From: Eucommia ulmoides
Taxonomy: Eukaryota; Streptophyta; Magnoliopsida; Garryales; Eucommiaceae
DNA length: 64,000 nucleotides
Assembly: GCA_016647705.1 (NCBI GenBank)
Contig: CM028334.1
Coordinates: 9,395,546 to 9,459,545 of the forward strand
Reading direction: 5' to 3'
Both the position numbers and the translations under genes were made by a program. Shown here in pieces: positions 2,462 to 62,336 of the stretch; position 1 is the stretch's first letter, and each line of letters starts with the position of its first letter. Below the pieces are notes generated by a model that did not search any database, was not told the origin of the DNA, and saw nothing but the letters and a program-made list of their open reading frames with translations.

Positions 2462-2566
2462 ATTATTACAACACGATGTTACCTTATATTCACAGTTATT
2501 CATACAAAACCAAATAGAAAATGGTCCAAATGGAAAAGGAAAGAGCACTAGATATATAACATAGTG

Positions 2567-2930
2567 TTGAGTTTATCCTACATCGGATGTGGAAGGGGAT
2601 GATGGTCAGGTTATAAGTGTGAGGAAAATCCTCATCTTACGAGCTAGCTTTAGGGGTGAGACAGATCCAAGACCACCCAATACTAATTTCAAAGCTCAGG
2701 TTATAGCAACTTTAACTCAATAGTCATAAAGGAAGAAACTGGTCGAGGGTTAGCCGAACATTGTGAGGAAGCAATTGTTGGGTTTATCTCACATCGGATG
2801 TGGAAGGGGCTAATGATCAAGTTGCCTACAATCCAACAATATCCCTTTTACACATTGAGTATTTGACCAGCTAATCCTCGATCAGTCTTTCCTTTTATAG
2901 TTATTGAGTCAAAGTTGTTTTAACATGTGT
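2567..2930 (+). mobile_element. TRIM/SMART-like short repeat, copy 1
   Basis: Two direct copies of a block beginning GTTGRGTTTATC and reading CATCGGATGTGGAAGGGG start near 2568 and 2777. A further block at about 2700-2760 (ACTCAATAGTCATAAAGG) is repeated in inverted form at about 2860-2925, so the unit is partly palindromic. The same family occurs in the opposite orientation in intron 2 of the PSY gene (15242-15560). No coding sequence is visible. The TGTTGGGTTTATCCCACATC start resembles short plant LTR (TRIM) elements, but I see no 5S-like promoter of the Cassandra type. Confidence 0.7.
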
Positions 2931-7523: not shown

Positions 7524-8544
7524 GGTTGCGTTTGGGTAAGGGATTTGACAAATCTAAGAGATTTGTGAAATGAGGGGGATTTTGAAATCCGTTCATTTCA
7601 TAAATCTCTTATTTGGATAATAGTTTGAGTCGAAGCATTTGAACATGTAATTTCAACAAATTATAGGAATAAAATAGAATAGAATAAAATTTATGGGAAC
7701 AAAAACAGAAACCCACATACCAAACCCAAATCCAAGAACAAATTGAAGAACAAATTCAACCAAATCGAAGAACAAATTCAAGAAAAACCCTAATCTGCAA
7801 ACACAATCTTCACAAATTGACGTTCGATTTCGATTTCGAAGACGAAATCGTCGTTCAATTTCGACCTTCACAAACCCTAATCTGCCTTGACCTTCACAAA
7901 CCCTAATCTGCTTCGATTTCGATTTCGTAATCGTCGTTCGATTTCGATTTCGAAGTCAAAATAGTTTTTGCAATCAATTTCGATTTCGAAGACGAAATTG
8001 TTGTCGAAATCGTCTTCGAAGGCCCTAAACGACAATGAGTTCGGACGACGACCAACTTCCGAAGCAGAAGATTACGACGGATGATGGCCCTAGACGACGT
8101 TCGGACGATGGCCAACCTTCGATGCAGAAGACGACAACGGACGACGGCCCTAGACGACGTTCGGATGACGGCCAACCTCCGAAGTAGAAGATAACGATGG
8201 AGGACGGCCTTAGACGACGTTCGGATGATGGCCAACCTCCGAATCGACCTTTATATGCGAAGAGGAAGAGCAAAGATGGAAGAATGGCGACGAAGATGAA
8301 GAATGAATCGACGGGCGATTGGAGAAGAGCGATGGAGTACATGTTCAGCAAGAGGAAAGATTTCACAAATTACACCTCTCCCAAAAATATTTTGAAATCC
8401 TTCATTTTTACCCCCCAAAGAATTTGACAAATCCTCTTTTTTCAAATCCTTCCACTCTCCAAACAAGGGATTTGTCAAAAGAGAATTTACAATTCCTCTA
8501 CCTAAATGAAATCCCTCCTAGAATTCCCTTACCCAAACGCAACC
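7524..8544 (+). mobile_element. PIF/Harbinger-like MITE, family 2, copy 1
   Basis: The left end GGTTGCGTTTGGGTAAGG and right end CTTACCCAAACGCAACC are near-perfect inverted repeats, flanked by TAA at 7521-7523 and 8545-8547. Sub-terminal sequence is rich in GATTTCAAAATC-type inverted motifs. The interior holds GATTTCGATTTCGAAGACG motifs and a 60-bp tandem repeat. No transposase is present, so movement would need an autonomous Harbinger elsewhere. Confidence 0.8.
8039..8250. repeat. 60-bp tandem repeat, about 3.5 copies
   Basis: Units start at 8039, 8099, 8159 and 8219, each with GTTCGGAYGAYG followed by CCAAC and GCCYTAGACGAC. The exact 60-bp period keeps frames open across the array on both strands, which explains the apparent peptide repeats. 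It lies inside the MITE 7524-8544. Confidence 0.95.
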
Positions 8545-11957: not shown

Positions 11958-12793
11958 GGTTGTGTTTGGGTAAGGAATTTCTAGGGGGGATTTCAAAATT
12001 ATTTTTTTAATAAATTCTTTATTTGGGGAGTGGAAGAATTTTAGGAAAGGGGATTTGTCAAATCCTTTTTTAGGTGAAAGAAAGGATTTCAAAATACTTT
12101 TGAAACAGGCAGAATTTGACAAATTTGCCGTGATCGTCATTGCTTATTTTGTTCTTCGTTCTTCTTTCGTTCTTCATTCTCTCTTCATTCTTCACTTCGC
12201 TCTTTTCTTTTGCACCTGAAGCCACTTTCGTCATCCGTCTAGGGTCTTCGTCGTCCGTCGTCATTGTCGTCTAGGGTGTTCGTCGTCGACTAGGGTTCGT
12301 TGTCGTGAATTGTGAATCGTCGTCGAAGATGATTTCGCGGGGGTTGGCCATCGTCCGTTGCCGTTGTCGTCTAGGGCCTTTGAAGACGATTTCGACGACG
12401 ATTTCATCTTCGAAATCGAAATCGAATGCAAAAATGAAATCGATTTCGAAATCAAAATCAAAATCGGACGACAATTTCGATTTTGTCTTCGAAATCAAAA
12501 TCGAACGACGATTTCGTCTTCGAAATCGAAATCAAACGTCGATTTGTGATTAGGGTTTGCAGATTAGGGTTTGGTTGAACGTCGTTTGGCGTTTGGTGAT
12601 GGTGATGGTTTTCTATTTTTGTTCCTATAAATTCTGTTATGTTTTGTTTTGTACCCATAATTTATTGAAATTACACGTTTAAATGCTTCGGCTCAAACAA
12701 TTATCCAAATAAGGAATTTGTTAAATGAAAGGATTTCAAAATTCAAGATTTTGAAATCCCTTCATTTCACAAATCTCTTACCCAAATACAACC
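11958..12793 (+). mobile_element. PIF/Harbinger-like MITE, family 2, copy 2
   Basis: The left end is GGTTGTGTTTGGGTAAGG and the right end, reversed, is GGTTGTATTTGGGTAAGAG. TTA is duplicated at 11955-11957 and 12794-12796. The interior has GTCGTCTAGGG repeats and GATTTCGTCTTCGAAATCG dyads like those in copy 1. No transposase is encoded; the short frames inside follow the GAAATCGAAATCG repeats. Confidence 0.8.
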
Positions 12794-15007: not shown

Positions 15008-15941
15008 ATGGCTGCAGGAGCTTCACAGATTCGCCTGCTGATGTTTCTCGTGTGTTTTTCTCTCCTTGTCTGTATGCATGACGCTGTTCCAATTACAAGT
15101 AATTCCTAAGAAACACTCTCTCAAATAGAACTTTATGTTCTATCTTTTCTTGATCATGATGTTGTCTTTTTCTTTTTGGGAGGAATTACCGGAAGTTTAT
15201 TGCATGAATCAGGAGAACAACAATCTGCAGAGAACACGCAACAATCCCAAAAATTAGCTCACGAGGTGAGGTTTTTCCTTACACTTATAATTTGACAACT
15301 AGTCATTTTCATATTCAATTTGAGATTAAACCCAACAATCTCTCCCCTTACATATTGGGCCCTTGGTTGGCTAACTCTCAATCAGTCTCTCATTTTGTGG
15401 TTATTGAGTCAGAATTGTTGTAACATGGACTATAATACTAGTGTAAGATGATTTTCGGCCTCTCAATCCCATAAGTTAACTTATGAAGTGAGACTTTCCC
15501 TCACGTTTATAACATGATCATAGCCCCTTCTACGTTTGATGTGGGATAAACCCAACAAATTTATCATATTTTTTAGGGATAAGAGTTGGACCAAGATATC
15601 TAATTAAAAACTTTAATATATATGGGAAATTCATTCAAAGTTAAGAGTTCAATAAGTAAAGTGCAAATATGATATAATTGAAGGGTAAAAGCCATAATTT
15701 AAACCAAAAAATGGATATTTTTGTTTCCTTTCCCCCCCTTTTTCTTCTTTTGCATATCTCCACCTTGCTATGTAATGAATTTGATAGTCTTTAGTTTTTT
15801 GGGGGGGAAAATTTCAATAATCAGGCAAAAATAAAGGAAAGCTGGATGGTGGGAACAATTGTTAGAAGGATGGACGTGGAGCTCAACGACTATCCCAGTT
15901 CAGGGGCGAATCGCCGGCACACGCCGATGCCGCAACCATGA
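15008..15941 (+). CDS. PSY-type tyrosine-sulfated secreted peptide precursor (3 exons, 96 residues)
   Basis: Exons are 15008-15098, 15183-15265 and 15825-15941. Introns of 84 and 559 bases both obey GT-AG, and the phases match. The precursor starts with a signal peptide (hydrophobic core about residues 9-22). A glutamine/glutamate-rich middle follows, then a C-terminal motif beginning at residue 80, DYPSSGANRRHTP, which fits the plant PSY family pattern DY-x-GAN-x-H-x-P. In that family the Tyr (here Tyr81) is sulfated in the secretory pathway by TPST, prolines may be hydroxylated, and the processed peptide acts outside the cell on LRR receptor kinases to tune growth against stress responses. 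Length and layout suit a peptide precursor. The ATG is the first after the TATA box and directly precedes the signal peptide. Intron 2 holds a TRIM-like repeat, and the last ~24 bases of exon 2 also resemble it. Expression is not shown by the sequence. Confidence 0.85.
15242..15560 (-). mobile_element. TRIM/SMART-like short repeat, copy 2, spanning the exon 2/intron 2 border
   Basis: Read on the minus strand it begins TGTTGGGTTTATCCCACATC (near 15560), as in the copy at 2567. Two direct blocks, 15242-15290 and 15464-15512, align without gaps at 37 of 49 positions by eye, and 11 of the 12 differences are transitions. The first block contains the last 24 bases of exon 2 and the GTGAGG splice donor. 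Both blocks lead into AAACCCAACAA. Copy 1 (2613-2661, reversed) has the same block, which shows that it belongs to the repeat and is not host sequence. Confidence 0.75.
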
Positions 15942-36712: not shown

Positions 36713-38433
36713 ATGGCTACGGAACCAACTAGACCGTTGAGGGAATATTACGTTCCCTCAGTTAATACATCGCCTTCATGCATTAAGTTGCCTGAATTTG
36801 GGGGTGCGATTTCATTTGAAATTAAACCCTCGACTATTCAAATTCTTCCATCATTTCATAGGCTTAGTCTTGATCATCCCTATAGGCACCTTAATGATTT
36901 CCTCGAAATTCACATCACGTTTAAATTTTCCCATTTATTTGAGTATGTTGTTTACCTCAGACTTTTATCGTTCTCCCTAAAAGATCAGGCAAATGAATGG
37001 CTCCATTCTTTACTCCCGGGATCCATCACTACTTGGAAAGAGCTTCAAAAAGATTTCCTACGAAAATTCTTCCCAATCAGGAAAACCAACCAAATTAGGA
37101 AAGCAATAACTTCCTTCTCCCAACAACCTACTGAACAATTCCATGAATGTTGGGATTGAATGAAGGATCTTTTGAGGCAATGCCTACATCACGGGGTACC
37201 GAAGTGGAAAATAGTGCAAAATTTATATAAGGACCTAATTGAACGCAATTGCCATATGGTGGATGTGTTTTGCGGAGGAACGTTCCTCGCTAAAAGCGAA
37301 GATGAGGCTTGGACAATGTTTGAGAATTTAATTGAAAATTCTTTACAACATACGTCCACAAGTAGGCAAGAGGACCTTGGACAAACACAAGGAGGAAGGA
37401 TGTACACGATCAAACAAGTAGACCTCACTACACAAGTTGATTGGATTTCCTAAAAGTTAGATAAAATCATTTTACAAAATCAACCATCTCCTTCTCCTCC
37501 TCCAACTATGGCATGTTCAATTTGCCTAAACCCATCCTATAATGTCATTGAGTGTCCTGTGGGGGTGCAATTTCCTGAATATGTTCAAGTATATAATAAT
37601 GTTGCACAAAACGTATCTCCGACTGGACAACAACTTGTAGTCCAACACTTATAATCCGGGAAGGTAAAATCACCCTAATTTTTCATGGAAGACACCCACT
37701 CAAGGACAGTCTTTTATTCCACCCTCTAGGCCTCAGTACCAGTTGCCACCCCCAAGATTTAACCAATCCCAAGGTCAAGCAAATACATAGCCGATTGAGA
37801 TGCAACAATTTCTTAAACTTTATCAAGAGCAAAATCAAAAAGTGAATTCACATTCTCAATCCCTAGCTAGGCTAGAATCCCAAATCAACCAAAGAGTGAA
37901 TTCGCATTCTTAGTCCCTGGTTAGGCTAGAAGCCCAAATTGGTCAGTTCGCTGAAGCTTTGAATAAGAGGGACGAGGGGACATTACCTAGCCAACCAATA
38001 AATAATCCTAGGGGTCAACACTTTATTGGAGAAATGAGTGAATCTCATGGGCACGTTCAATCGATTATGACCCTTAAGAGTGGCAAAAATGTTGACAATC
38101 GGGTAGGCATTGAGGAGAGAATTCAAGAGGATGAGAATGAAAATGAAGAGATAGTAGAAGAACCACAACATAGCAAGAAAGTTGAGGAGCCCAAAAGTTC
38201 AAACTCCAAACTTGATACACCTAAGGAAATACGTTCCGTTCCTCGGCCTCCATTTCCTCAATGTTTGACTCAACCTTCACCATTCAGTCAAGATAACACT
38301 AGAATGGAAGATATCATAGAAACATTTAAACAAGTAAAGATTAATCTTCCATTCTTGGACGCTATTAAACAAGTTCCCGCATATTCAAAATTCTTGAAGG
38401 ACCTTTGTATACAGAAAATAAAATCTAAAACAC
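36713..38433 (+). pseudogene. Athila-like gag remnant
   Basis: The ATG at 36713 starts a frame with the Athila gag segment (PYRHLNDFLEIHITF, LRLLSFSLKDQANEWL, GSITTWKELQKDFLRKFFP). A single TGA at 37157 interrupts it in frame, and the same frame goes on to 37453 (RQCLHHGVPKWKIVQNLYKDL). A Cys-containing piece (CSICLNPSYNVIECP, about 37507) corresponds to the gag C-terminal region. A further frame from 37959 covers the gag-protease linker and reaches NLPFLDAIKQVPAYSKFLKDL near 38345-38405. Stops and frame changes make it inactive. Confidence 0.88.
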
Positions 38434-38781
38434 GTGTCAAAGAAGGTCTTGCTAACCCAACAAGTGAGTTCCATCTTAGGATGTCAAACACCACCAAAGT
38501 TTAAAGACCCTAGAGTCCCGACTATAGCATGTGTGATAGAAGACCAGCCCATCGCAATGGCTCTCTTTGATTTGGCCGCAAGTGTAAATTTGCTGTCATT
38601 TTCTGTGTATGAGCGTCTAGGTTTGGGGGATCTAAAGCCTACATCGGTGACACTCCAGTTAGCCAATAGGTCAGTCAGAAGACCAAGGGGCATAATTGAA
38701 GATGTATTCGTAGGAGTAGTGAAGTTTTTATTCCTCGTGGATTTTATAGTCCTAGACATGGAAACCAGTCCCAAGCCTTAG
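38434..38781 (+). pseudogene. Athila-like aspartic protease remnant
   Basis: The frame contains FKDPRVPTIACVIEDQ, the active-site segment ALFDLAASVNLL (Asp codon near 38569) and TSVTLQLANRSVRRPRGIIED. The usual Athila motif is DLGASVN; here the Gly is Ala, which would be expected to harm the flap-side geometry. It ends at a stop at 38779. Confidence 0.85.
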
Positions 38782-48939: not shown

Positions 48940-49253
48940 TAATAGGTGTGATGTACCTATCTATTTTCAAACCAAACTAAATTAGTTTTCGAGTATTTTT
49001 ATAGTATTTTAATAGGTTTTAATGTGTTTTTATTCTTTTTGTATTAAATCAGGTGTTTGAGGTGAAAAGGTATGAATTAGAGTATAAATGATCAATTCGG
49101 ACTAAGAACGGTCGGAGAATGGTGAAAAAACAAGCACGGAGGCAATAATCAGAATAACAGCCCACCGCCACGGCGTCTAGACCACCGCCGCGGCGGTGAA
49201 AATTTAGAGAAGGGCCAAGTCTTGCTGGACATCCACTGTCGTAGCGGTGACAT
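48940..49253 (+). repeat. 5' LTR of B, first part
   Basis: It starts TAATAGGTGTGATGTACC (TG mutated to TA, compared with TGATAGG at 59355). It contains CCGCC(G/A)CGGCG palindromes at 49161-49200 and 49231-49253 and is interrupted by element A after GACAT. Confidence 0.85.
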
Positions 49254-49450
49254 TGATAGGTGTAAAATACCTATCTAATTCTAAACCGAATTTGCCAGTT
49301 TTCGAGTACTTTATTGAAGTTTGAATATCGTTTTAGCTGTTTTTATTAGTCAGGAACAGGGAAGTAAACAATCGACAAATCGAGCGAAATGGTGCAAAAA
49401 GGGTAGCCAAAAAGATGAAAAAAAGAGATTTCAAATAACAGAGTAATTCC

Positions 49451-49840
49451 GTTGAGGCGAAGTTTCCACCGCCTAGGCGGAAATTCAGCAGAAAGATGCA
49501 AAAACTGAAGATTTGAAATCCACCTAGGCGAAGTTTCAACCGCCTAGGCGGAAATTCGTCAGAAGGTTGCAAGGGCTGAAGTATTGAATTCGCCTAGGTG
49601 AAGTTTCCACCGCCTAGGCAGAAATCCATCAGAATGTTGGATGAACTGAACTGCTGGATTGAGCTGCACTGCTATAAATCCGCCTAGGCAAAGTAGCTAC
49701 CGCCTAGGTGGAATTCCGTCAGAAAGATAAGGAGCCAAGAAGTTAGTCCTCTGCCTAAGCGAAGATTTTACCGCTTAGGTGGAATTCTAACCGACTTAAA
49801 CTCCGCCTAAGCGAAGTTTCTACCGCTTAGGCGGAAATCG
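49451..49840. repeat. Array of six GC-rich palindromic dyads in U3 of the 5' LTR
   Basis: Each dyad has two arms of the type CCGCCTAGGCG separated by about ten bases (AAGTTTCCAC type), with dyads 50-90 bp apart. In dyads 1-4 each arm is itself palindromic around CCTAGG. In dyads 5 and 6 the arms are CCTAAGCG and CGCTTAGG, no longer self-palindromic but still complementary to each other; dyad 6 (49803-49813 with 49824-49834) is a perfect 11-bp stem. Confidence 0.92.
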
Positions 49841-49887
49841 CAGAACAGGTCAAAATATCTGTTTAGATATTTTTGAACCCCTAAGCC

Positions 49888-49895
49888 TATAAATA
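49888..49895 (+). promoter_or_regulatory. TATA box of element A, 5' LTR
   Basis: TATAAATA followed by CCCCTTGG lies about 50 bp downstream of the dyad array. It is conserved in the 3' LTR (55497-55504) and in the solo LTR (near 61357), so it is the likely LTR promoter core. Confidence 0.7.
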
Positions 49896-50873
49896 CCCCT
49901 TGGCCACGTCTAAAACTTGTAGTTGAAGAACCCTAACCCTAGTAAAGAGCTCTTAAGCCATATTTTGAAGATCAAGAAGGAGGTTCATCATTCGGATAAA
50001 GAAGGATAACTTGCGGACCGATCATTAGTGACAGTGAACCGTTTCACTTCCAGATTTGATCGTTTCTCTCTTGTTTTATTCTTTGTAATCACTTTTTCAT
50101 ATCTAAGAATGTTGAATCCCTCTTATTTTGTATGGTATATGGCTAAGATCTTATAGTGGTAGTTAAATGTTAATTAGGTGTAGTCGAAATCATGTAATCG
50201 TTTAGTTGAATGAATTAATGTTACTTTAACGTGTTGTTTGTCTAAATCTAATTGTGTTTACCATTATTCCTGATATTATTCTTGTATAGATAAAACAAGA
50301 ATACGGGGTTTGACACTCGGGAGAGGTAACCCCGAATTCGGATTAGGGTAAATACAACGTGACTTTCTAACGACCAGGGAAGGCGTTAGAACGTATACAA
50401 CCCATGACGTTGGCTCAAAACTCACATGACCTAGGGTCTCTAAGGCATTGAAGGGGACTTCTTCGCTGGCACGAAGTCGTGTAATCCCCTGTCTTACACT
50501 TGGGAGAGGTAGCGGATGAGTTATTGATACAGAGGTTGTCGGATTAGATAAAAACTGTTATAGCTAACTAAATGACATCGATTATGCATTATATGAAAGA
50601 TATTAATACCTAAGTAATTAGTATAATTAGAACTAACCCAATAGTTGTAGTCTATCTTAGTATAGTAAATAGAAAACAAACGAATTACGATTAGTCGAGA
50701 TAATACGAAACTGTGTAAATCACAATACTCAACCGAATTACACGAATTTCCCAGTAGAATGATATCCGATCCTAAAAGATCCATTATATTAAAACTAGAT
50801 CTCGTACACTTGCGAGTAGTCCAATTACCGCGAGGAGGAAACAAGGTTGTGAATCTGAGCGCGTACAAGTTTT

Positions 50874-50891
50874 TGGCGCCGTTGCCGGGGA
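50874..50891 (+). other. Primer binding site of element A
   Basis: TGGCGCCGTTGCCGGGGA is the complement of the tRNA-Asp 3' end and starts six bases after the 5' LTR, as in Athila-type elements. Confidence 0.9.
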
Positions 50892-51000
50892 AAGGTGTCG
50901 TAATTTGGTTGATATTGTGACCAAGTGGTTGAATATTAATATTGACAATTCTTTTCTTTTATTTTCTTTTAAATTATTTGTTTAATTTGTTTCGAGAGAT

Positions 51001-51174
51001 GTGATCAAACAGAGCATACAGCGAAGAAGGAGTTTGGAATTTTTTGCTTTTGATCCCGAGATTGAGCATATGTTGAAAAGGATAAGGAGAGAGAGAAGAA
51101 ACCAACTTCAATACAATGAATCACGATCCAACAAAACATTCTATCCAAAATACCTTGTCTATGAGGGATTTTGG
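51001..51174 (+). pseudogene. Athila-like gag N-terminal stub in element A
   Basis: A + strand frame reads FDPEIEHMLKRIRRERR, the usual start of Athila gag, and stops at 51172. The expected ATG context is replaced by ATG-TGA just upstream. Only the first ~55 codons survive. Confidence 0.65.
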
Positions 51175-51199
51175 TAAAAAATGCTCAAGCAAATGTCCC

Positions 51200-51322
51200 G
51201 TAGGTACTATCGAGTTAGAAGGTGACGACGGACGAACTTTTCGAGTCAATGGGGACCGGATCAAGCTCTACTTCAAGGATGAAGAGCGAGTTGTGGAGAA
51301 CATCTCCATCGTGGAAGGATAG
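51200..51322 (+). pseudogene. Integrase C-terminal stub in element A
   Basis: In a second frame the sequence reads GTIELEGDDGRTFRVNGDR and then IKLYF before a stop at 51320. The 'FRVNGxRIKxYF' ending is the C-terminal end of Athila-type integrase. It lies within 30 bases of the gag stub, so nearly the whole gag-pol gene has been deleted between them. Confidence 0.65.
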
Positions 51323-51597
51323 AGCCGGAATTCTTAAACGTCCATGCTAGGGACGTAAAACCAAGCAACATCTTTTGATATGACATCGAGGGTAACGAAT
51401 ATTCCTAACTTTTGTATAAATACCTTTTTGGAGATCGTATTGATCTTGTAATACTAATTTTTTGTGGTGAATTGATGAGGTTAGATACTTAGGATTGATT
51501 TGCATGCTAAAACTAATTTGAGGATTGAAGAGGAAATAAGAGGTGTAGAGAAACAATGTGAAAACCTAAAGGAATCCAGCTTAGGTCCACACTGGCA

Positions 51598-51995
51598 AAA
51601 ATTCGCCTAAGCGGTAAAACCACCGCCTAGGCAAAAATTGGACAAAAAGACTTAGAAAATATTCTGGCGTAATTTTGCCTAGGCCGTAAAACCACCGCTT
51701 AAGCGATAATTGGACAGAAAAAGTCAGTATTTTTACATTGCCGAATTTTCGTCCAGGCGGTAAAACCACCGCCTAGGCGGAAAATTGAAGAAATGCTGAA
51801 CCTTCACACTGGTGTAAACTCGCCCCGGCGGAAAACCTACCGCCTAAGCGGATTTACAACCAAATCAGGGTTTCACACTGGTGTAAACTCACCCCGGCGG
51901 AAAAACCACCGCCTAAGCGGATTTACACCAGAAAGTTTTTAAAAAGAAAAAGGCGCTCATTCACCTAAGTGGAAAAACCACCGCGTAGGCGAATT
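51598..51995. repeat. Second palindromic dyad array, inside element A
   Basis: Six units at ~70-bp spacing (near 51602, 51676, 51750, 51822, 51891 and 51961) follow the plan CGCCTAAGCGGT-AAAACC-ACCGCCTAGGCG. The inner stem GCGGT/ACCGC and loop AAAACC differ from the AAGTTTCCAC spacer of the LTR array, so this is a related but separate array. It lies between the integrase stub and the downstream transposon-protein trace. Confidence 0.9.
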
Positions 51996-52640
51996 CACGC
52001 GACCCCTGTTTTAAAAAGCAACAGTCCTCTTCACAAACGACATTTCCCTCCTAAAAATTTCAAGAAACCTCTCAACTTCACCATCCCAAATCCCTTCCTC
52101 CCATTAAAGATTCACCCTACATTGCTAAAAATTGGATTTTCGCCAAGAATCTTCATCCAAACGTGGAATTTCTCCTCCCATTTTTGAAAATTAGGGTTCG
52201 AACGGTAAAACAATGCAATATCGCCATTCTCCAATGATTTGATCTAAATTTTTCAACAAGTAAGTGTCAATGATCCTATTTTTCATTTAGTTGTTGAAAT
52301 ATGTGCTTCATTTGCTTATTTATTTCAAAAAATAATTGGATTTGGTTAGAACCCTAAACCCCTTTAAACCCTAAGTTGCAGTTTTTATGTTATTTGGGAT
52401 TGAGGAATGATTAATGGTAAACCCTATCATGTTTTTGTGTTTCTATACAATGTGAATCATTTATTGAATGCTACATTGCGACAAAAATGTGATTTGGTTA
52501 TGGTTGGTGGAATATCTTGTGAAATTTGTATTGATTGGCTTTGGTTGGCATATGTTTGAGAAAATAGGGCATTGTGTGTTCGCTGACCGGGGTTTGAAGT
52601 GCGAGTTCTATTGTTATTATTGTGGTTGGTGTTATGATTG
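51996..52640. other. Non-coding interior of element A
   Basis: Leader-like sequence with no domain that I recognise. It contains GGGTTCGAACGG and TTAGAACCCTAAACCCC phrases. Confidence 0.5.
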
Positions 52641-52646
52641 TGATTT

Positions 52647-53173
52647 ACAGGAAAAATGGCAAAGCGGCACTGGTTTCTAAAATCGATCCCAAAGATTTGG
52701 CATTAATTTATCTGCGCCGATCTGCTCCCTACCTCTAATGTGTCTGATGTTGCCAAGGAACGAGCATTTATGCTATACGGCATTGATAGAGGGACGCCCG
52801 TCAATGTTGGTTGGCATATCTACTCGTCAATAATTCATACTGCCAGGTTAACAAAAGGTCGTGGAAGGGCGAATCAGGTGAAGGTGAAGAGGGTCAGGAA
52901 GAGGAAGAAGCCAGCCCTTCGGAGCCACCGACGCCCACAACCAGCCGCGGCTAGCTCATTCAACTTTCACGAGATGTTCGTAGTCTCCTGTCCGATATGA
53001 GCTAGCTCCAAGAAAAATTTTCTCGGATGGAGAACTACATGGAGTCCTACATCCGGCAACAAGATCAAAACTAATGAGTCATATTTGAGCATCTTGGAAT
53101 CGATATGGCGCGTTATATGCCCGTGCCGCTCTTCGTGCCGGATGAGCTGCCACCGCCATCTCCTCCACAATGA
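52647..53173 (+). pseudogene. Plant transposon-associated protein remnant (PF20167-like)
   Basis: One frame reads DVAKERAFMLYGIDRGTPVN and VGWHIYSSIIHTAR, which resembles the 'putative plant transposon protein' domain often found downstream of pol in Athila elements (ERA-LLY-I-G--INVG). It runs on into a Lys/Arg-rich stretch. A different frame near 53000-53173 holds MENYMESYIRQQDQN and, after a stop, a Pro-rich end (PPPSPPQ), as in the tail of such proteins. Stops and shifts make it inactive. The domain assignment is from memory of the family pattern. Confidence 0.5.
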
Positions 53174-54852
53174 ACGGTAGGAGGTTAGATTTCTATGTCT
53201 TCCCTCCTAGGTATGTGTCCGCCCCAGTTTCAATACATATTTTTCTATTCTGCTCTTGGGTTCGCTGCTTAGGCAGTGGGGACACTGCCTCGTTTAAGTT
53301 TGGAGGAAATATGACATGCAATGCATGTAGTTTTTGTTTTTTGTTTTTTTTGTCTTTGGGGGATAAGAAGGATGAAAAAATTTTGATGTAAAGGGGACAA
53401 AAATTCTTTTTGTGTACAAATTTATGTATTAATGTTAAAATTTTTGTAAATTTTGAAATTCTTTTTGTTATACATGTGTAATTTTAGCTATGCATGTGTA
53501 AGGATAATTAGCATAGGTAATATTAGTTTGTAGAATTAGAATAGAATTGTTAATGAATTGAGTTGTACAAACATGCTGAGTTTTTGAGTTCGTTCGAACC
53601 ATGTCCCGATGATGAAAATCACTCCCTAATTTGTGTTTTAAGGTCGGGGGTAATGCCATTCACGTGTGTTTTGTGTGCTTAGCATGTCGATTAGGTAAAA
53701 ATTATTTTGATTCTAAAATTGCACAATTGCATAAACTCGTTGTATAATTAATTGAACGATTGGATATCGATTATTCAGTAATAAGTTCATGACAGAAATG
53801 AGGAATCTAGAACTTGACTGGGGGAGGCTTGAGGCAAAATTATAGATAAGGTAATTCCGGAGGCATGATATAGGCTCTCGTTTTTATCGCTTGAACCTTT
53901 TGAAACTAACTTGAAAAGTTATTTCCTCGTTCTCCTATTGAAGCCATAAAATTGTGTCACTTCTAAACTTGTTTCTATACTTTAACCAAGTAAATCTTTC
54001 AGAACCATTTTCGCTAGGAATAAAAGTGATAATTGAGTGAAAATAAGTAGCATTAGATTATGCTAACTTGAAGCGAGCAATCGGGGTTTCAGTATTTTTG
54101 GTTAAGTATAAGAGTATTCACTTGTCAATCCTGTAGTTGTATCTAAACACCACTAACATTGTATAAAATTGAATAAGTTTGGGGGTGTACTTAAAAAAAA
54201 AAAAACCTATGTGAATATAGTGTTTAAATTCGATTGTTTTGACAAGTGAATACAAGTTTACTAAATCCTGTTCAGGGTAATATCTTCAAAGATAAGGGAG
54301 TCATGAGAGAGATTTAGCGACAAGTGTATGTACCTCGGGTATCGTTAAAAGTATAACGAGTTTATATTTCTACGATACCCTTGGCCGTTATCCAAAGCCT
54401 GACCAAGCCCTATTGATCTCGGTGAATGTCCGAACCTACATTAGTGGATAGTTGAGCCCAGTCAAGCATATGGATTCCCTAAATGTTTTAACAAGTTTAA
54501 GTCATGACCTTATTCGTTGAATAATCCAATCTGGCATTTGATTTGTTATATATCCGAGTTCTCACACACACACATTTCAATAGGATCTAAAATGATTTGA
54601 ACTGATATTGAGTGTTGAAATTCTGGAACACCACGTGGTGTGTGTTATTCCTTAACCGGATCTGATTACGGGTTGTTGAGGGAAGAAGAGCATGGTTTCT
54701 TTGACTAAACTTGTATCTCACAGGTGTGTACTTCTTAATTGTTAATGATTACGTATCTGTAGTTTAGGATGTAGCTAATTAGTGTAGTTAGTGTTATTTA
54801 GCATTAGGGTGTTTTGCTCGAGGACTAGCAAAATTTCAAGTTTGGGGGTATT
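53174..54852 (+). other. 3' non-coding region of element A
   Basis: It carries the Athila-type phrase GGGGACACTGCC followed by GTTTAAGTTTGG (about 53278-53303) and is collinear with B's interior (57880-59354), for example TGTGTGCTTARC and AATCTAGAACTTGA. It ends with the polypurine tract AGTTTGGGGGTATT (54839-54852). Short frames are not genes. Confidence 0.75.
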
Positions 54853-56466
54853 TGATAGGTGTAAAATACCTATCTAATTCTAAACCGAATTTGCCAGTTT
54901 TCGAGTACTTTATTGAAGTTTGAATATCATTTTAGCTATTTTTATTAGTCAGGAGCAGGGAAGTAAACAATCGGCAAACCGAGCGAAATGGTACAAAAAG
55001 GGTAGCCAAAAAGATGAAAAAATGAGGTTTCAAATAACAGAGCAATTTCGCCTAGGCGAAGTTTCCACCGCCTAGGCCGAAATTCAGCAGAAAGATGCAA
55101 AAACTGAAGATTTGAAATCCACCTAGGCGAAGTTTCAACCGCCTTGGCAGAAATCCGTCAGAAGGTTGCAAGGTCTGAAGTATTGAATCCGCCTAGGCGA
55201 AGTTTCCACCGCCTAGACGGAAATCCATAAGAATGCTGGATAAACTGAACTGCTGGATTGAGCTGTACAGCTGTAAATCCACCTAGGCGAAGTAGTTACC
55301 GCCTAGGCGGAATTTCGTCAGAAAGATAAGGAGCCAAGAAGTTAGTCCTCCGCCTAAGCGAAGATTCTACTGCTTAGGCGGAATTCTAACCGACTTAAAC
55401 TCTGCCTAAGCGAAGTTTCTACCGCTTAGGCAGAAATCGCAGAACAGGTCAAAATATCTGTTTAGATATTTTTGAACCCCTAAGCGTATAAATACCCCTT
55501 GGCCACGTCTAAAACTTGTAGTTGAAGAACCCTAACCCTAGTAGAGAGCTCTTAAGCCATATTTTGAAGATAAAAAAGGAGGTTCATCATTCGGATAAAG
55601 AAGGATAACTTGTGGATCGATCATTAGCGATAGTGAACCGTTTTACTTCCAGATTTGATCGTTTCTCTCTTGTTTTATTCTTTGTAATCACTTTTTGATA
55701 TCTAAGAATATTGAATCCCTCTTATTTTGTATGGTATATGGCTAAGATCTTATAGTGGTAGTTAAATATTACTTAGGTGTAGTCGAAATCATGTAATCGT
55801 TTAGTTGAATGAATTAATGTTACTTTAACGTGTTGTTTGTCTAAATCCAATTGTGTTTACCGTTATTCTTGATATTATTCTTGTATAGATAAAACGAGAA
55901 TACGGGGTTTGACACTCGGGAGAGGTAACCCCGAATTCGGACTAGGGTAAATACAACGTGACTTTCTAACGACCCGGGAGGGCGTTAGAACGTATGCAAC
56001 CCATGACGTTGGCTCAAAACTCACACGACCTAGGGTTGTTAAGGTGTTGAAGGGGACTTCTTCGCTGGCACGAAGTCGTGTAATCTCCCGTCTTACACTC
56101 GGGAGAGGTAGCGGAGGAGTTATTGATACAGAGGTTGTCGGATTAGATAAAAACTGTTATAACTAACTAAATGACATCGATTATGCATTATATGAAAGTG
56201 ATTAATACCTAAGTAATTAGTGTAACTAGAACTAACCCAATAGTTGTAGTCTATCTTAGTATAGTAAATAGAAAACAAACAAATTACGATTAGTCGAGAT
56301 AATACGAAACTGTGTAAATCACAATACTCAACCGAATTACATGAATTTCCCAGTGGAACGATATTCGATCCTAAAAGATCCATTATATTAAAACTAGACC
56401 TCGTACACTTGCGAGTAGTCCAATTACAGCGAGGAGGAAACAAGGTTGTGAATCCGAGCGCGTACA
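54853..56466 (+). repeat. 3' LTR of element A
   Basis: Same length and ends as the 5' LTR. The dyad array is at 55047-55436 and TATAAATA at 55497-55504. Dyad 6 here has arms CTGCCTAAGCG (55402-55412) and CGCTTAGGCAG (55423-55433): both arms differ from the 5' LTR at the matching position, so the stem remains perfect. Confidence 0.93.
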
Positions 56467-56471
56467 GACAT

Positions 56472-57572
56472 CCACCGCCGCGGCAGTGAAACTACAAGAT
56501 GGTCCTTGAATCTACTTCCTTCTCCACTGCTGTAGCGAAGATTAAACCAACATACCTACCGCCGCAGCGGTCACCTCTGCACAGAGTTAGGATATTTAAG
56601 ATATTTTGTGATATTTTTGAGCCTACATATATCATCATTTTTCCTCCATTTCAAGGGTTAGACATTTTGGGAAGTCTTGAAAGCTCTGAGGCCATTCGAC
56701 CAAGGGAAGATCACGTTGCGAAGAAGGAGGAAGCATTCTCGGAATGGTTTTAGCGTCGGATCTTCGGATAAACAACTAATTTTCTTGTTTATCTCTTTCT
56801 CTCTTAGATTTGGTTGAATGTTTGTGTATGTTTAGCTCATTTATGTTGTATATAGGACTACGACTATGTTTAGCTAAACATATATTGTCTAGGGCTTGAT
56901 TGAATTCATGAAAACGTTGTTTATATAAAATTGATGTTTTGTTAGTGGTTGTTCATGTTTATCTGATTGTGTTTTCCATGTTGTATTGTTTATTATGCTT
57001 GTTATGATATACCAAGAATACGGGGTTTGATACTCAGGAGAGGTAACCCCAGATTCAGATTAGGGTAAATACAACGCCACGATCCAATAACCCGGGAGGG
57101 AGTTAGAAAGTATGCAATCGATGATGTTGGGGTGAGACTTACGTGACCTAGGGTCGTTAAGACATTGATCGGGATTTATTCGTTGACATGAAATTGTGTA
57201 TTGCCCCGTCTTACACTCGGGAGAGGTAGCGAGAGAATTTACGAAGTGAGATTGTCAGATAGAATGAACACCATTAATGAAAATAGATTGAAACGAACAC
57301 GTTTAAGTGAACGATATTAATCCCTATGCAATAATTCCCATAAACGTTCTACCAATATATTAGTATAATTAGATTAATTAATTTAGTATTAGTATTAATT
57401 AATTATAAATACCATTTTTGACACCTAGATAAAGTCAGGTTATGATAATTACGGTACTCAACAATATTCTCAACCAATCCCTATGAAACGATATCCGACC
57501 GAAAGGTCCACTATATTAAAACTTAACCCGTACGCTTACGGTAAAAGTGGCGATGCAAAATTGCGGCCACCA
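56472..57572 (+). repeat. 5' LTR of B, second part
   Basis: It resumes with CCACCGCCGCGGCAGTGAA after element A, which is the expected continuation judged from B's 3' LTR. It shares GATCACGTTGCGAAG and the GGGGTTTGATACTC phrase with solo LTR C and ends CGGCCACCA, before AGTTT and the primer site. Confidence 0.88.
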
Positions 57573-57578
57573 AGTTTT

Positions 57579-57596
57579 TGGCGCCGTTGCCGAGGA
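57579..57596 (+). other. Primer binding site of element B
   Basis: TGGCGCCGTTGCCGAGGA has one mismatch to the tRNA-Asp-type site seen at 50874 and lies six bases after the LTR. Confidence 0.88.
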
Positions 57597-59354
57597 TTGT
57601 GTTTTAGATTATTGTTGATATTGTGAGTAAATAACTTGATTTTAATTTAGGCATTTTTTAGTGTTTATAATTTTTCTTTGTAGTTTTGTCTTTGTTTTCT
57701 TGCAGGGTGCTTGAAAATGTTAGATCGACAGGTACTCTTACGTTTTTTTCATTGTAACATCTCTCCAGTCTTGAGGGCATGTGTCGAGCCGAGGACATTA
57801 AACCATGCGCTTCTTGGGAGGTAACTTAAGTTCTAAAATAAGTTAGATCTATCTCCGCCAATTTGAGTCGGAGGTGAGATTCTCTCGCCTCCTAGGTATG
57901 TGTTCTAAACCTCCGTCTTCAATATCATGCTATATATTATCATTGGGATCGCTGATGGGTCATTTTGGGCAATGCCTGTGTTAAGTTGGTGGAGATGTGT
58001 AGTACGTTGTTAGTATGTGTTTATGTTATTCATTAAGTTTTACTGTTTTTATCGTGTGCATGCTTGTTTATCATTAGTTTGTTTAGTTTAGTTGTTGTTT
58101 TGTGTTGAGTTTTGACGTCATCTGAGCCTTTACTCAATGATGAGTCTGTCCCCTAGTTGTTTATTGAGGTCGAGCGTAAAGCTCATTCATCTGTGTTCTG
58201 TGTGCTTAACGTATCGTTTTAGTAAAAGTTATTGAAGATCCTAAATACACGAGCTCGTAAACTCAATATAGCACTATCTAATTAAATTGAAAACGATTAT
58301 CCTTCACTCAAATTCATGACAATAGGGAATCTAGAACTTGATTTGGGAAAAATTCGGGGCGAAATCCTAGGCAAGGTTGTTCAGGAGATATGATTTAGAT
58401 ATTCATTTGATCGCTTGAACCTTTTGAAGCCTACCATGCAATATCATTATCCCTCGTTACCCTATCGAAGCCTAATTTCCATTCAATTATGAATATATGA
58501 ACAAATACCCTGGCTAGTTGATTTTTTTCCAAACCTATATCACTGAATTAAAGGTATATTTGATTGAATCAAGTTAGCATTCATATATGCTACTTGATGT
58601 GAGCGGTTGGGTTTAGGGTGAACTTTGGATTGGTTCGGTATTAGTGTATTCACTTGTCATTTTCTTAATCCTTTTTACACACTCCTAAAACTATATAAAT
58701 TCAAATAAGTTTGGGGGTGTGTTATTCGAATTTTTTTTTTATGTTTCTTTTGATAAGTGAGTACGTCGGTCTAAAATGATTGTTTGGGATTGTTTATAAT
58801 TTTTCTATGGGGGTTCGAGAGTGAATGTGCCAAGCAATGTGCCTTGGTTAACGTTAAGTTAACGACGTTAACCCATTTTCTATTCAAATTTACCCTTGAC
58901 CATTTTTCCAAAACCGATCCAAGCCCTATTGATCTTTTTGAACCTCCGATCCTACATTAGTGGAGAAATAGATCCCAGGTCAGGCGTATGGATTCCCTAT
59001 ACCTAAAAGGTTTTAGTTATGAACTTTATTGAGGGATAATCCCATCTAATCAATGGATAGTTATATATTTGAGTTTAATCACACACAGTTTAACAGGATC
59101 TAGAATGGAGCTTACTATTTTTGAACGTTGAAATTCTAGAACACCACATGGTGTAATTTATGCTTGAATTTAATAGGATTGGGGACCGATGAGGGAACAT
59201 TTGTTTGGCTGGTAGATGATAATCAAAACTTACACATTATTGTTTTTAGTGTTTTTTCATTTTTAGTTTTTAATTTCGTAATTAGTTATCATATTTCTCG
59301 TATTGTGTGAGTGTTTTGCTCGAGTACTAGCAAAATTCTAAGTTTGGGGGTTTT
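57597..59354 (+). other. Non-coding interior of element B
   Basis: No gag or pol motif is readable. GCGCTTCTTGGGAGG (about 57806) and GGGCAATGCCTGTGTTAAG (about 57968) are Athila-type landmarks that normally flank the end of pol. The rest matches the 3' non-coding part of A. The polypurine tract AAGTTTGGGGGTTTT precedes the 3' LTR. Confidence 0.75.
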
Positions 59355-60445
59355 TGATAGGTGTGATATACCTATTTATTTCCAAATCGAACTAAGTTAG
59401 TTTTCGAGCATTTTTATAGTATTTTATTACATTTTAATGTGTTTTTATTCTTTTTGTATTAAATCAGGTGTTTGAGGTGAAAATGTATGAAATCGGAGCG
59501 TGAACGATCAATTCGGACCAAGAACGATTGGAGAACGGTGTAAAAACAAGCACGGAGACAATAATCGGATTAGCAGCCCACCGCTGCGACATCGAGACCA
59601 CTACTGCAGCGGTGAAAATGCAGAGAAAAGCCAAGTCTTGTTGGACATCCACCGCCGTAGTAGTGACATCCACTGCTGCGACGGTGAAATTGCAAGATGG
59701 TCCATGAATCCACTGCCTTCTCCACCGCTGCGGCGAACATTAAACCAACAGACCTACCACCGCGGCGGTGAATCCTACCACCACAACAGTCACCTCTGCA
59801 CATATTTAGGATATTTAGGATATTTTGTGATATATTTTTAGCATATATATATCCACCATTCTCCTCCATTTCAAGGGTTAGACGTTTTGGGAAATCTTGA
59901 GAACTTCGAGGCCATTCGACCAAGGGAAGATCATGTTGTAAATAAGGAGAAAGTGTTCTCGAAATAGTTTTAGCATCGGATCTTTGGATAAATGGCCAGT
60001 TTCCTCGTTTCTTTTTTTCTTTCTTAGATTTGGTTGAATGTTTGTATATGTTTAGCTCGTTTCTAGTTGTATATAGGGCTACGACCATATTTAGCTAAAC
60101 ATATATTGTCTAGAGCTTGATTGAATTCATGAAAACGTTGATGGGGACTTCTCATTGACACGAAGTCGCGTATTCTCCCGTCTTACACTCGGTAGATGTG
60201 GCGATGGAGTTTACGAACTGAGATTATCGGATAGGATAAACACCATTAATGAAAATAGATTAAAACAAACACGTTTAAGTGAACGATATTAATCCCTAGG
60301 CAATAATTCTCATAAACGTCTTACCAATATATTAGTATAATTAGATTAATTAATTTAGTATTAATATTAATTAATTATAAATACTATTTTTGTTGCCAAG
60401 ATAAAGTTGGGTTATAATAATTACGGTACTCAACAATATTCTCAA
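59355..60445 (+). repeat. 3' LTR of B, deleted and truncated
   Basis: It starts TGATAGGTGTGATATACC. Palindrome motifs (CCGCCGTAG, CCGCGGCGGTGA) lie at about 59579-59795. About 245 bp present in the 5' LTR are missing at about 60140, where the flanking copies share ATTG/GTTG microhomology. It stops at ATTCTCAA, where hAT-like sequence begins, so the last ~120 bp of the LTR are absent. Confidence 0.85.
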
Positions 60446-60770
60446 TTGGGGTGTGCAGCGGGAAGATTAACCTGCTAAACCAACCCAAACCGTCCAAAAA
60501 CTGCCTGAATTTTAACCAGCCTGAACAGACCCACGTATTGCGCGGGCTGCACTGCCCTTGCCCGCTACTGTTCTGGTCGGCTCGTGGGTTTGGAGTGTGT
60601 GTTTGGCGGGTTGACCTGCCCGCCCGAAATACATGCCTAAACGACGTCGTTTAGGCCTTGATCTATACCTCTTTCAGGCTTCAGTTCGTCTCATTCCATT
60701 ATCGTCGGCAAGGGCTACTACAACGATCACCACTTTTCTTTTTTCTTCCCCAAATCGAAGATCTCGTTGT
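60446..60770. mobile_element. hAT-like fragment with a 22-bp perfect palindrome
   Basis: It starts GGGGTGTGCAGCGGG followed by AACCTGCTAAACCAACCC, as in many plant hAT-derived repeats, and contains CGGGTTGACCTGCCCGCC. The palindrome with core CTAAACGACGTCGTTTAG lies at 60635-60656. No right end is seen; the solo LTR at 60776 interrupts the fragment and no matching continuation is recognised after it. Confidence 0.45.
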
Positions 60771-60775
60771 GTAAT

Positions 60776-62336
60776 TGATAGGTGTAAAATACCTATCTAA
60801 TTCTAAACCGAATTTGCCAATTTTCGAGTATTTTATTGAAGTTTGAATACCATTTTAGTTGTTTTTGTTAGTCAGGAGCAGGAAAGTAAACAATTGGCAA
60901 ATCGAGCAAAATGGTGCGAAAGGGGTAGCCAAAAAGATGAAAAAAGGAGGTTTCAAATAACAGAGCAATTCCACCCAGGCAAAGTTTCCACCGCCTAGGC
61001 GAAAATTCATCAGAAAGATGCATAAACTGATGATTTGAAATCCGCCTAGGTAAAGTTTCTACCGCCTAGGCCGAAATCCGCCTAGGTGAAGTTTCTGCCG
61101 CCTAGGCCGAAATCCGTCAGAAGGTTGCAAGGGCTGAAGTATTGAATCCGCCTAGGCGAAGTTTCCACCGCCTATGCGGAATTCCGTCAGAAAGATAAAG
61201 ATCCAAAAAGTTAGTCCTCCGCCTAAGCGAAGATTCTACCGCTTAGGCGGAATTCTAGTCGACTTAAACACCGCCTAAGCGGAATTTCTACCGCTTAGGC
61301 GGAAATCGCAGAACAGGTCAAAATATCTGTTTAGATATTTTTGAACCCCTAGGCTTATAAATACCCCTTTGCCCACGTCTGAAAGAAAAGGTTGAAGAAC
61401 CCTAACCCTAGTAGAGAACTCTTAAGCTATATTTGGAAGATCAAGAAGGAGGTTCATCATTCGGATAAAGAAGGATAACTTGCGGACCGATCATTAGTGA
61501 CAGTGAACCGTTTCACTTCCAGATTTGATCGTTTCTCTCTTGTTTTATTCTTTGTAATCACTTTTTCATATCTAAGAATGTTGAATCCCTCTTATTTTGT
61601 ATGGTATACGGCTAAGATCTTGTAGTAGTAGTTAAATGTTACTTAGGTGTAGTCGAAATCATGTAACCGTTTAGTTGAGTAAATTTATGTTACTTTAACG
61701 TATTGTTTGTCGAAATCTGATTGTGTTTATCGTTATTATTGATATTATGCTTGTATTGATAAACCGAGAATACGGGGTTTGACACTTGGGAGAGGTAACC
61801 CCGGATTCAGATTAGGGTAAATACAACGTGATGTTCTAACGACCCGGGAGGGCGTTAGAACGTATGCAACCCATGACGTTGGCTCAAAACTCACATGACT
61901 TAGGGTCGTTAAGGCGTTGAAGGGGACTTCTTCGTTGACATGAAGTCGTGTAATCCCTCGTTTTACACTCGGAAGAGGTAGCGGAGGAGTTATTGATATA
62001 GAGGTTGTCGGATTAGATAAAAACCGTTATAGCTAACTAAATGAAATCGATTATGCATTATATGAAAGAGATTAATACCTAAGTAATTACTGTAATTAGA
62101 ACTAACCCAATAGTTGTAGTTTATCTTAGTATAGTAATTAGAAAACAAACAAATTATGATTAGTCGAGATAATACGAAACTATGTAAATCACAACACTCA
62201 ACCGAATTACACGAATTTCCCAGTGGAACGATATCCAATCCTAAAAGATCCATTATATTAAAACTAGACCTCGTACACTTGCGAGTAGTCCAATTACCTC
62301 GAAGAGGAAACAAGGTTGTGAATCCTCGCGCGTACA
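60776..62336 (+). mobile_element. Solo LTR of family A
   Basis: It begins TGATAGGTGTAAAATACC and ends CGCGCGTACA. GTAAT is duplicated at 60771-60775 and 62337-62341. Its dyad array (60968-61302) has one dyad partly repeated and others missing relative to A. It is 1561 bp long against 1614 bp in A. Dyads 5 and 6 are perfect stems here (CCGCCTAAGCG with CGCTTAGGCGG). Confidence 0.92.

Follow-up and report, generated by a model that had tools for sequence, protein, structure and literature searches.

The second coding exon of a PSY-like gene very probably ends in retrotransposon sequence: a TRIM would have inserted antisense in intron 2, a deletion would have fused exon 2 to one of its LTRs, and the donor carried by that LTR would have taken over the splicing of the exon. 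The gene lies in the 64,000-nt stretch of DNA analysed here as a whole (C10:9395546-9459545, hereafter the window), which is part of a genome of 947 Mb in 391 contigs. Both this gene and the TRIM family are indicative of a plant.

A PSY-like gene with a TRIM in intron 2

The gene consists of three coding exons, as follows.

15008..15098, forward strand: exon 1 of the PSY-like precursor, with the ATG at 15008; it ends in phase 1, the same junction phase as in the three paralogues found
15183..15265, forward strand: exon 2, 83 nt, ending in phase 0; its start is backed by comparison with the paralogues L017, L018 and L053
15266..15824, forward strand: intron 2, 559 nt, containing the remainder of the TRIM
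15825..15941, forward strand: exon 3, including the stop codon
15888..15926, forward strand: PSY motif DYPSSGANRRHTP, residues 80-92 of 96, intact on translation

The splice sites of this gene and of the three paralogues were placed by hand. The precursor of 96 amino acids is encoded by the three exons with intron phases of 1 and 0, and all 96 codons are open. Its N-terminus, encoded by exon 1, is hydrophobic as judged by eye, while its C-terminal part, DYPSSGANRRHTPMPQP, matches the PSY motif DYXXXX[AP]NXXHXP given in the published passages (PMC7913133). As read from its translation, the gene encodes a PSY-like, predicted sulfated-peptide precursor. Nearly the same motif as DYPSSGANRRHTP is found in Arabidopsis PSY6 (DYPGSGANNRHTPH) and PSY8 (DYPGSGANNRHLPR), as quoted in PMC11534595, and in the sulfated tomato xylem peptide DyPSSGANNRHTpSHP, as quoted in PMC9028419, the comparison being of the peptides alone. 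In all three comparisons R replaces N after GAN; S for G is an additional difference from both PSY6 and PSY8, and PSY8 further differs by an L where the window peptide has T.

Pfam and PDB sequence searches with the 96-residue precursor gave no match. In DNA searches of the genome, the region upstream of the gene matched solely the window gene itself, and the 3' region matched itself and four weak sequences of 56-67 nt, located outside the coding part. The acceptor of exon 2, GGGAG|GAA, is atypical, but its position is nonetheless backed by the paralogues.

Anatomy of the TRIM and of its family

Intron 2 and the end of exon 2 contain the following elements, together with a second copy of the repeat family elsewhere in the window.

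15242..15557, reverse strand: TRIM (LTR, internal part, truncated LTR), antisense to the gene, 316 nt
15442..15557, reverse strand: 5' LTR of the TRIM, 116 nt, with TG...CA ends
15338..15441, reverse strand: internal part, 104 nt, with a decayed primer site at 15430-15441 and a purine-rich tract at 15338-15347
15242..15337, reverse strand: 3' LTR, 96 nt, without the outer approximately 23 nt at the exon junction
15558..15562, forward strand: AATTT, candidate remaining target-site duplication (right flank)
2565..2823, forward strand: second copy of the repeat family, outside the gene, incomplete or diverged

The repeat was recognized from a 49-bp block, 15242-15290, which recurs without gap at 15464-15512 with 37 of 49 identities, in agreement with the original prediction. 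Among 300 letter-shuffled block queries, examined on both strands of the window, the best score was 31 and the mean 27.6. The reversed copy that had also been claimed does exist, again with 37 of 49 identities in the best ungapped match; it lies at 2611-2659, two bases off the position of 2613-2661 given before. When the 2565..2823 copy was scanned with the 119-nt LTR of the sister locus L007, no full-length LTR match was found.

The block is multicopy in the 947-Mb genome, as the same prediction had proposed. A 71-bp query gave at least 41 matches (40 scored out of 527 first-look candidates) and a 104-bp query likewise at least 41 (40 scored out of 1347 candidates); among the matches listed, the 104-nt query was 78-85% identical to 40 other places.

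The proposal of a TRIM-like repeat is borne out by the LTR-internal-LTR anatomy, the target duplications and the primer site, and the element agrees with three TRIM criteria in the published passages (PMC4717578); its internal part of 104 nt is too short for the protein named in the TRIM criterion. The window element retains the purine tract GGGGAGAGAT ahead of its second LTR, and its primer site is decayed. Inspection of the exon junction by eye revealed no left target duplication. Over 93 sites the two LTRs differ by 21 transitions and 4 transversions (K80 0.36), indicating that the insertion is old. At two assumed rates its age would be 14-26 million years, or less if methylation sped the transitions.

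Seven sister loci from the 71-bp search were taken in a first reading, and a scan for LTR pairs, using the 119-nt LTR of L007 as the query, then covered 36 loci (these seven plus 29 from the 104-bp search, the two sets overlapping at four of the seven) together with the second window copy. An LTR pair was detected in 27 of the 36 loci and was absent from the other 9; the paired LTRs are about 119 nt long and are separated by 86-130 nt, often by near 103 nt. After removal of repeats, 27 distinct LTR pairs were obtained, 12 of which keep both the TG and the CA ends. The 5-bp flanks of these pairs agree at 69 of 135 positions, against a mean of 45.6 and a maximum of 63 in 2000 shuffles, even though the statistic takes in pairs within tandem arrays, which dilute the signal; in 10 of the 27 pairs the flanks are alike at 4 or 5 of the 5 positions, with letters differing between pairs. 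The sister copies have 5-bp target duplications above chance. In the element sense of L007, the LTR is followed by TGGTATCAGAG, the complement of the 3' end of tRNA-Met(CAT) plus CCA; the identity of this tRNA is an ARAGORN call, and its first 24 bases have 22 exact matches in the genome.

At L022, L032, L047 and L048, and perhaps at L027, at least three LTRs of the family lie close together. These clusters resemble the tandemly arrayed TRIMs described in passages of PMC4717578.

Fusion of exon 2 to the LTR and the origin of the donor

Two short features mark the contact between gene and repeat.

15242..15265, forward strand: LTR-derived final 24 nt of exon 2, residues 51-58 QSQKLAHE, assigned by the 37/49 block match and the gap in the L017 alignment
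15266..15271, forward strand: 5' splice site GTGAGG from the LTR, predicted donor

Exon 2 ends at 15265, so that its last 24 bases and the GTGAGG donor both fall within the block, as had been proposed. The added residues are indeed in the spacer of the precursor, where they were expected at about 52-58; their actual extent is 51-58. The limit of the repeat was determined by comparison with 43 distinct LTR-end stretches. The outer LTR end is present in the intron-side LTR, whose score was equalled by none of 300 shuffles, whereas the exon side, 15219-15241, does not resemble an LTR, its score being reached by 130 of 300 shuffles. Since the outer end is found at the intron side but not at the exon side, the LTR part starts near 15242, and everything upstream of it is gene sequence. 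The exon is fused to the truncated LTR.

Within 15180-15299, GT dinucleotides occur only at 15195, 15266 and 15271. None starts within 15196-15265, indicating that the old donor is gone. The GT at 15266, which RNA splicing is predicted to use, is the only one that keeps the frame into exon 3 (phase 0). The GT dinucleotides at 15195 and 15271 might serve the cell instead, or exon 2 might be skipped. We regard this as improbable: GTTTAT and GTTTTT deviate at +3 to +5 from the donor consensus, and either donor, as well as skipping, leaves phase 1 or 2 ahead of an exon that requires phase 0, so that the hormone frame would be lost.

With respect to the favoured donor at 15266, the antisense strand of the LTR carries GAG|GTGAGG. 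Among 29 aligned LTR copies, the GT at the donor position is kept in 21, and 11 have exactly GAGGTGAGG (GAG|GTGAGG); because of this retention, the donor was most likely present at the time of insertion. A stop codon in the reading frame of the window gene is found in 7 of the 29 copies. The TRIM appears, from these alignments, to supply both the last eight codons of exon 2 and its splice signal.

Paralogues and the ancestral state of exon 2

Three paralogues, L017 (C2), L018 (C16) and L053 (C11), were found, a lower bound because 3, 3 and 4 candidates were scored in three protein searches. With exons placed by hand, all three are open and have three coding exons with phases 1 and 0. Their second exons are shorter, 62 nt in L017, 53 nt in L018 and 62 nt in L053, against 83 nt in the window gene (59 nt plus the 24 nt of the TRIM part). 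In the three paralogue gene regions, LTR matches did not exceed 13 nt, the lowest E value being 0.41, no more than expected by chance. The suggestion that exonization of a TRIM lengthened the PSY precursor is thereby supported.

The TRIM part starts where exon 2 of L017, the nearest paralogue, ends: L017 reads ...SENMNM and then the donor, the window gene ...AENTQ and then the LTR. The global protein alignment of the two contains internal gaps of 4 residues, in the N-terminal part, and of 7 residues, corresponding to the LTR-coded SQKLAHE. Removal of the 24 nt raises the score from 127 to 134, a small gain, and turns the 7-residue gap into a gap of one residue. The upstream similarity to L017 gave a score of 52, compared with a shuffled maximum of 34 (n=200).

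If the exon end were itself ancestral, its resemblance to an LTR would have arisen by chance or convergence. The phase 0 junction common to the paralogues would agree with such an origin, but the block extends beyond the splice site as part of a nearly full-length TRIM, each of its two matches reached 37 of 49 when shuffles attained no more than 31, and the three paralogues found have no LTR match beyond chance; we consider an ancestral exon end highly improbable. To judge from the aligned genes, it is the phase of the exon 2-exon 3 junction that is ancestral, and neither the place nor the sequence of the donor. The in-phase junction and the intact motif in exon 3 had both been correctly predicted. 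The supposed gain of a new donor is supported in that the LTR carries GTGAGG, and can be refined: an existing exon appears to have been extended and its old donor replaced, and the outer approximately 23 nt of the LTR were lost.

Intron numbers quoted for PSY genes of other plants are different from the two coding introns of the window gene: in the tobacco and wheat reports (PMC12153210, PMC11641228), whose passages give intron counts without phases, eight of the nine tobacco genes have three introns, while some wheat genes have two exons and the remainder three introns.

A proposed history of insertion, deletion and donor replacement

The TRIM would have inserted, antisense, into intron 2 of the PSY-like gene, very near the old 5' splice site. 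In the simplest history, the target would be an AATTT just within the intron. The intron of L017 begins with GTAATTT, so that AATTT at intron positions +3 to +7 has the same letters as the right flank of the TRIM. AATTT occurs twice in 135 positions of the L017 intron and at a frequency of 0.6% in the window, and the match, which fits the insertion site weakly, is suggestive only.

A later deletion of about 30 nt, fusing exon 2 to what was left of the LTR, would have eliminated the old GT along with the left target duplication and approximately 23 nt at the LTR's outer end. As the left target duplication is absent, this step is inferred. Insertion before deletion is the order presumed here, and a different order or a larger deletion may also account for the arrangement. 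The pre-existing GAG|GTGAGG of the antisense LTR, usable by U1, would then have shifted splicing downstream by 24 LTR-derived nt. As the fusion was in frame and open, QSQKLAHE would have been added to the propeptide spacer. Since these residues lie upstream of the mature peptide, the hormone itself would be unchanged.

Selection on the gene and on the added codons

The 24 exonic LTR nucleotides gave no indication of slower evolution, column agreement being 22 of 24 against 71 of 80 in the other LTR positions (Fisher p = 1) in a test limited by its sample of 29 copies picked by similarity to the query; 7 of the 29 copies show a difference as large as that of the exonic LTR part. Since conservation is no higher here than elsewhere in the LTR, the added codons give no hint of selection. 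The spacer that separates the N-terminal signal from the mature peptide is highly variable among PSY precursors, according to passages of PMC7913133, and QSQKLAHE is located in this spacer, indicating that the addition was probably tolerated, near-neutral, rather than selected.

For the gene without its LTR part, comparison with L017 over 79 codons gave dN 0.51 and dS 1.27. The values were dN 0.60 and dS 1.01 for exons 1-2, and dN 0.40 and dS 1.43 for exon 3. All of these average both lineages, with dS near saturation.

These values bear on the question of whether the gene is a decaying paralogue, incorrectly spliced or not expressed, in which the LTR donor would be a mere pseudogene feature. 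The added part shows no selection signal and the acceptor of intron 1 is atypical, as expected of such a gene. We nevertheless consider decay unlikely, because the 96 codons are open, the phases match those of three paralogues, the motif is intact, dN is below dS against L017, albeit as an average of both lineages near saturation of dS, and the frame has survived despite the age of the LTR pair (K80 0.36).

Relation to known cases of exonization

TRIMs are enriched in or near plant genes and changes in gene structure by them have been reported; an average of 2.7% of the TRIMs in a given genome have become exons, either coding or untranslated (Gao et al. 2016, PMC4717578, in the passages considered). 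Exonization of TRIMs is thus already described, and the present case is a clear new example of it. Compared with the passages of that paper, the case here is resolved at the base level, an ancestral donor appears to be replaced by an LTR donor, the gene encodes a peptide hormone, and repeat-free paralogues serve as reference. In abstracts on mammalian Alu, L1 and LTR exonization, elements, some of them antisense, likewise provide splice sites adopted by genes; several of these abstracts describe new cassette exons, whereas in the window gene an existing exon would be extended via a shifted 5' splice site. Among the papers listed in literature searches, at the level of titles and abstract openings, no PSY or other peptide-hormone case of TRIM exonization was seen, although one may still exist in print.

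What makes the case valuable is that a single genome shows the replaced splice site together with the breakpoint and paralogues free of the repeat. It would mean that a very small retrotransposon can stand in for a splice site that was lost and extend the precursor of a hormone, leaving the hormone untouched. Since the LTR carries a ready donor, other genic copies may act likewise. A tentative extension, which we hold possible but doubtful, is that the LTR of this family, in antisense, acts as a mobile 5' splice site, whose genic copies could repeatedly capture exon ends and reshape genes, and which in this instance would have rescued a hormone gene after the deletion of its original donor.

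Other features of the window

A block of about 0.9 kb is present three times, at 49253-50195, 54852-55794 and 60775-61664, with a spacing of about 5.6-5.9 kb and pieces 90-96% alike. Short repeats around CCGCCTAGGCGG-like palindromes occupy 51586-52024, with several following one another at 51.6-52.0 kb, and are also found within 49449-61323. An imperfect inverted repeat in several pieces connects 7579-8480 with 12005-12742, its arms being 77-93% complementary and 3.5-4.9 kb apart. An open frame of 196 codons is located at 37914-38504, which we take, as an impression, to resemble a piece of a retrotransposon polyprotein.
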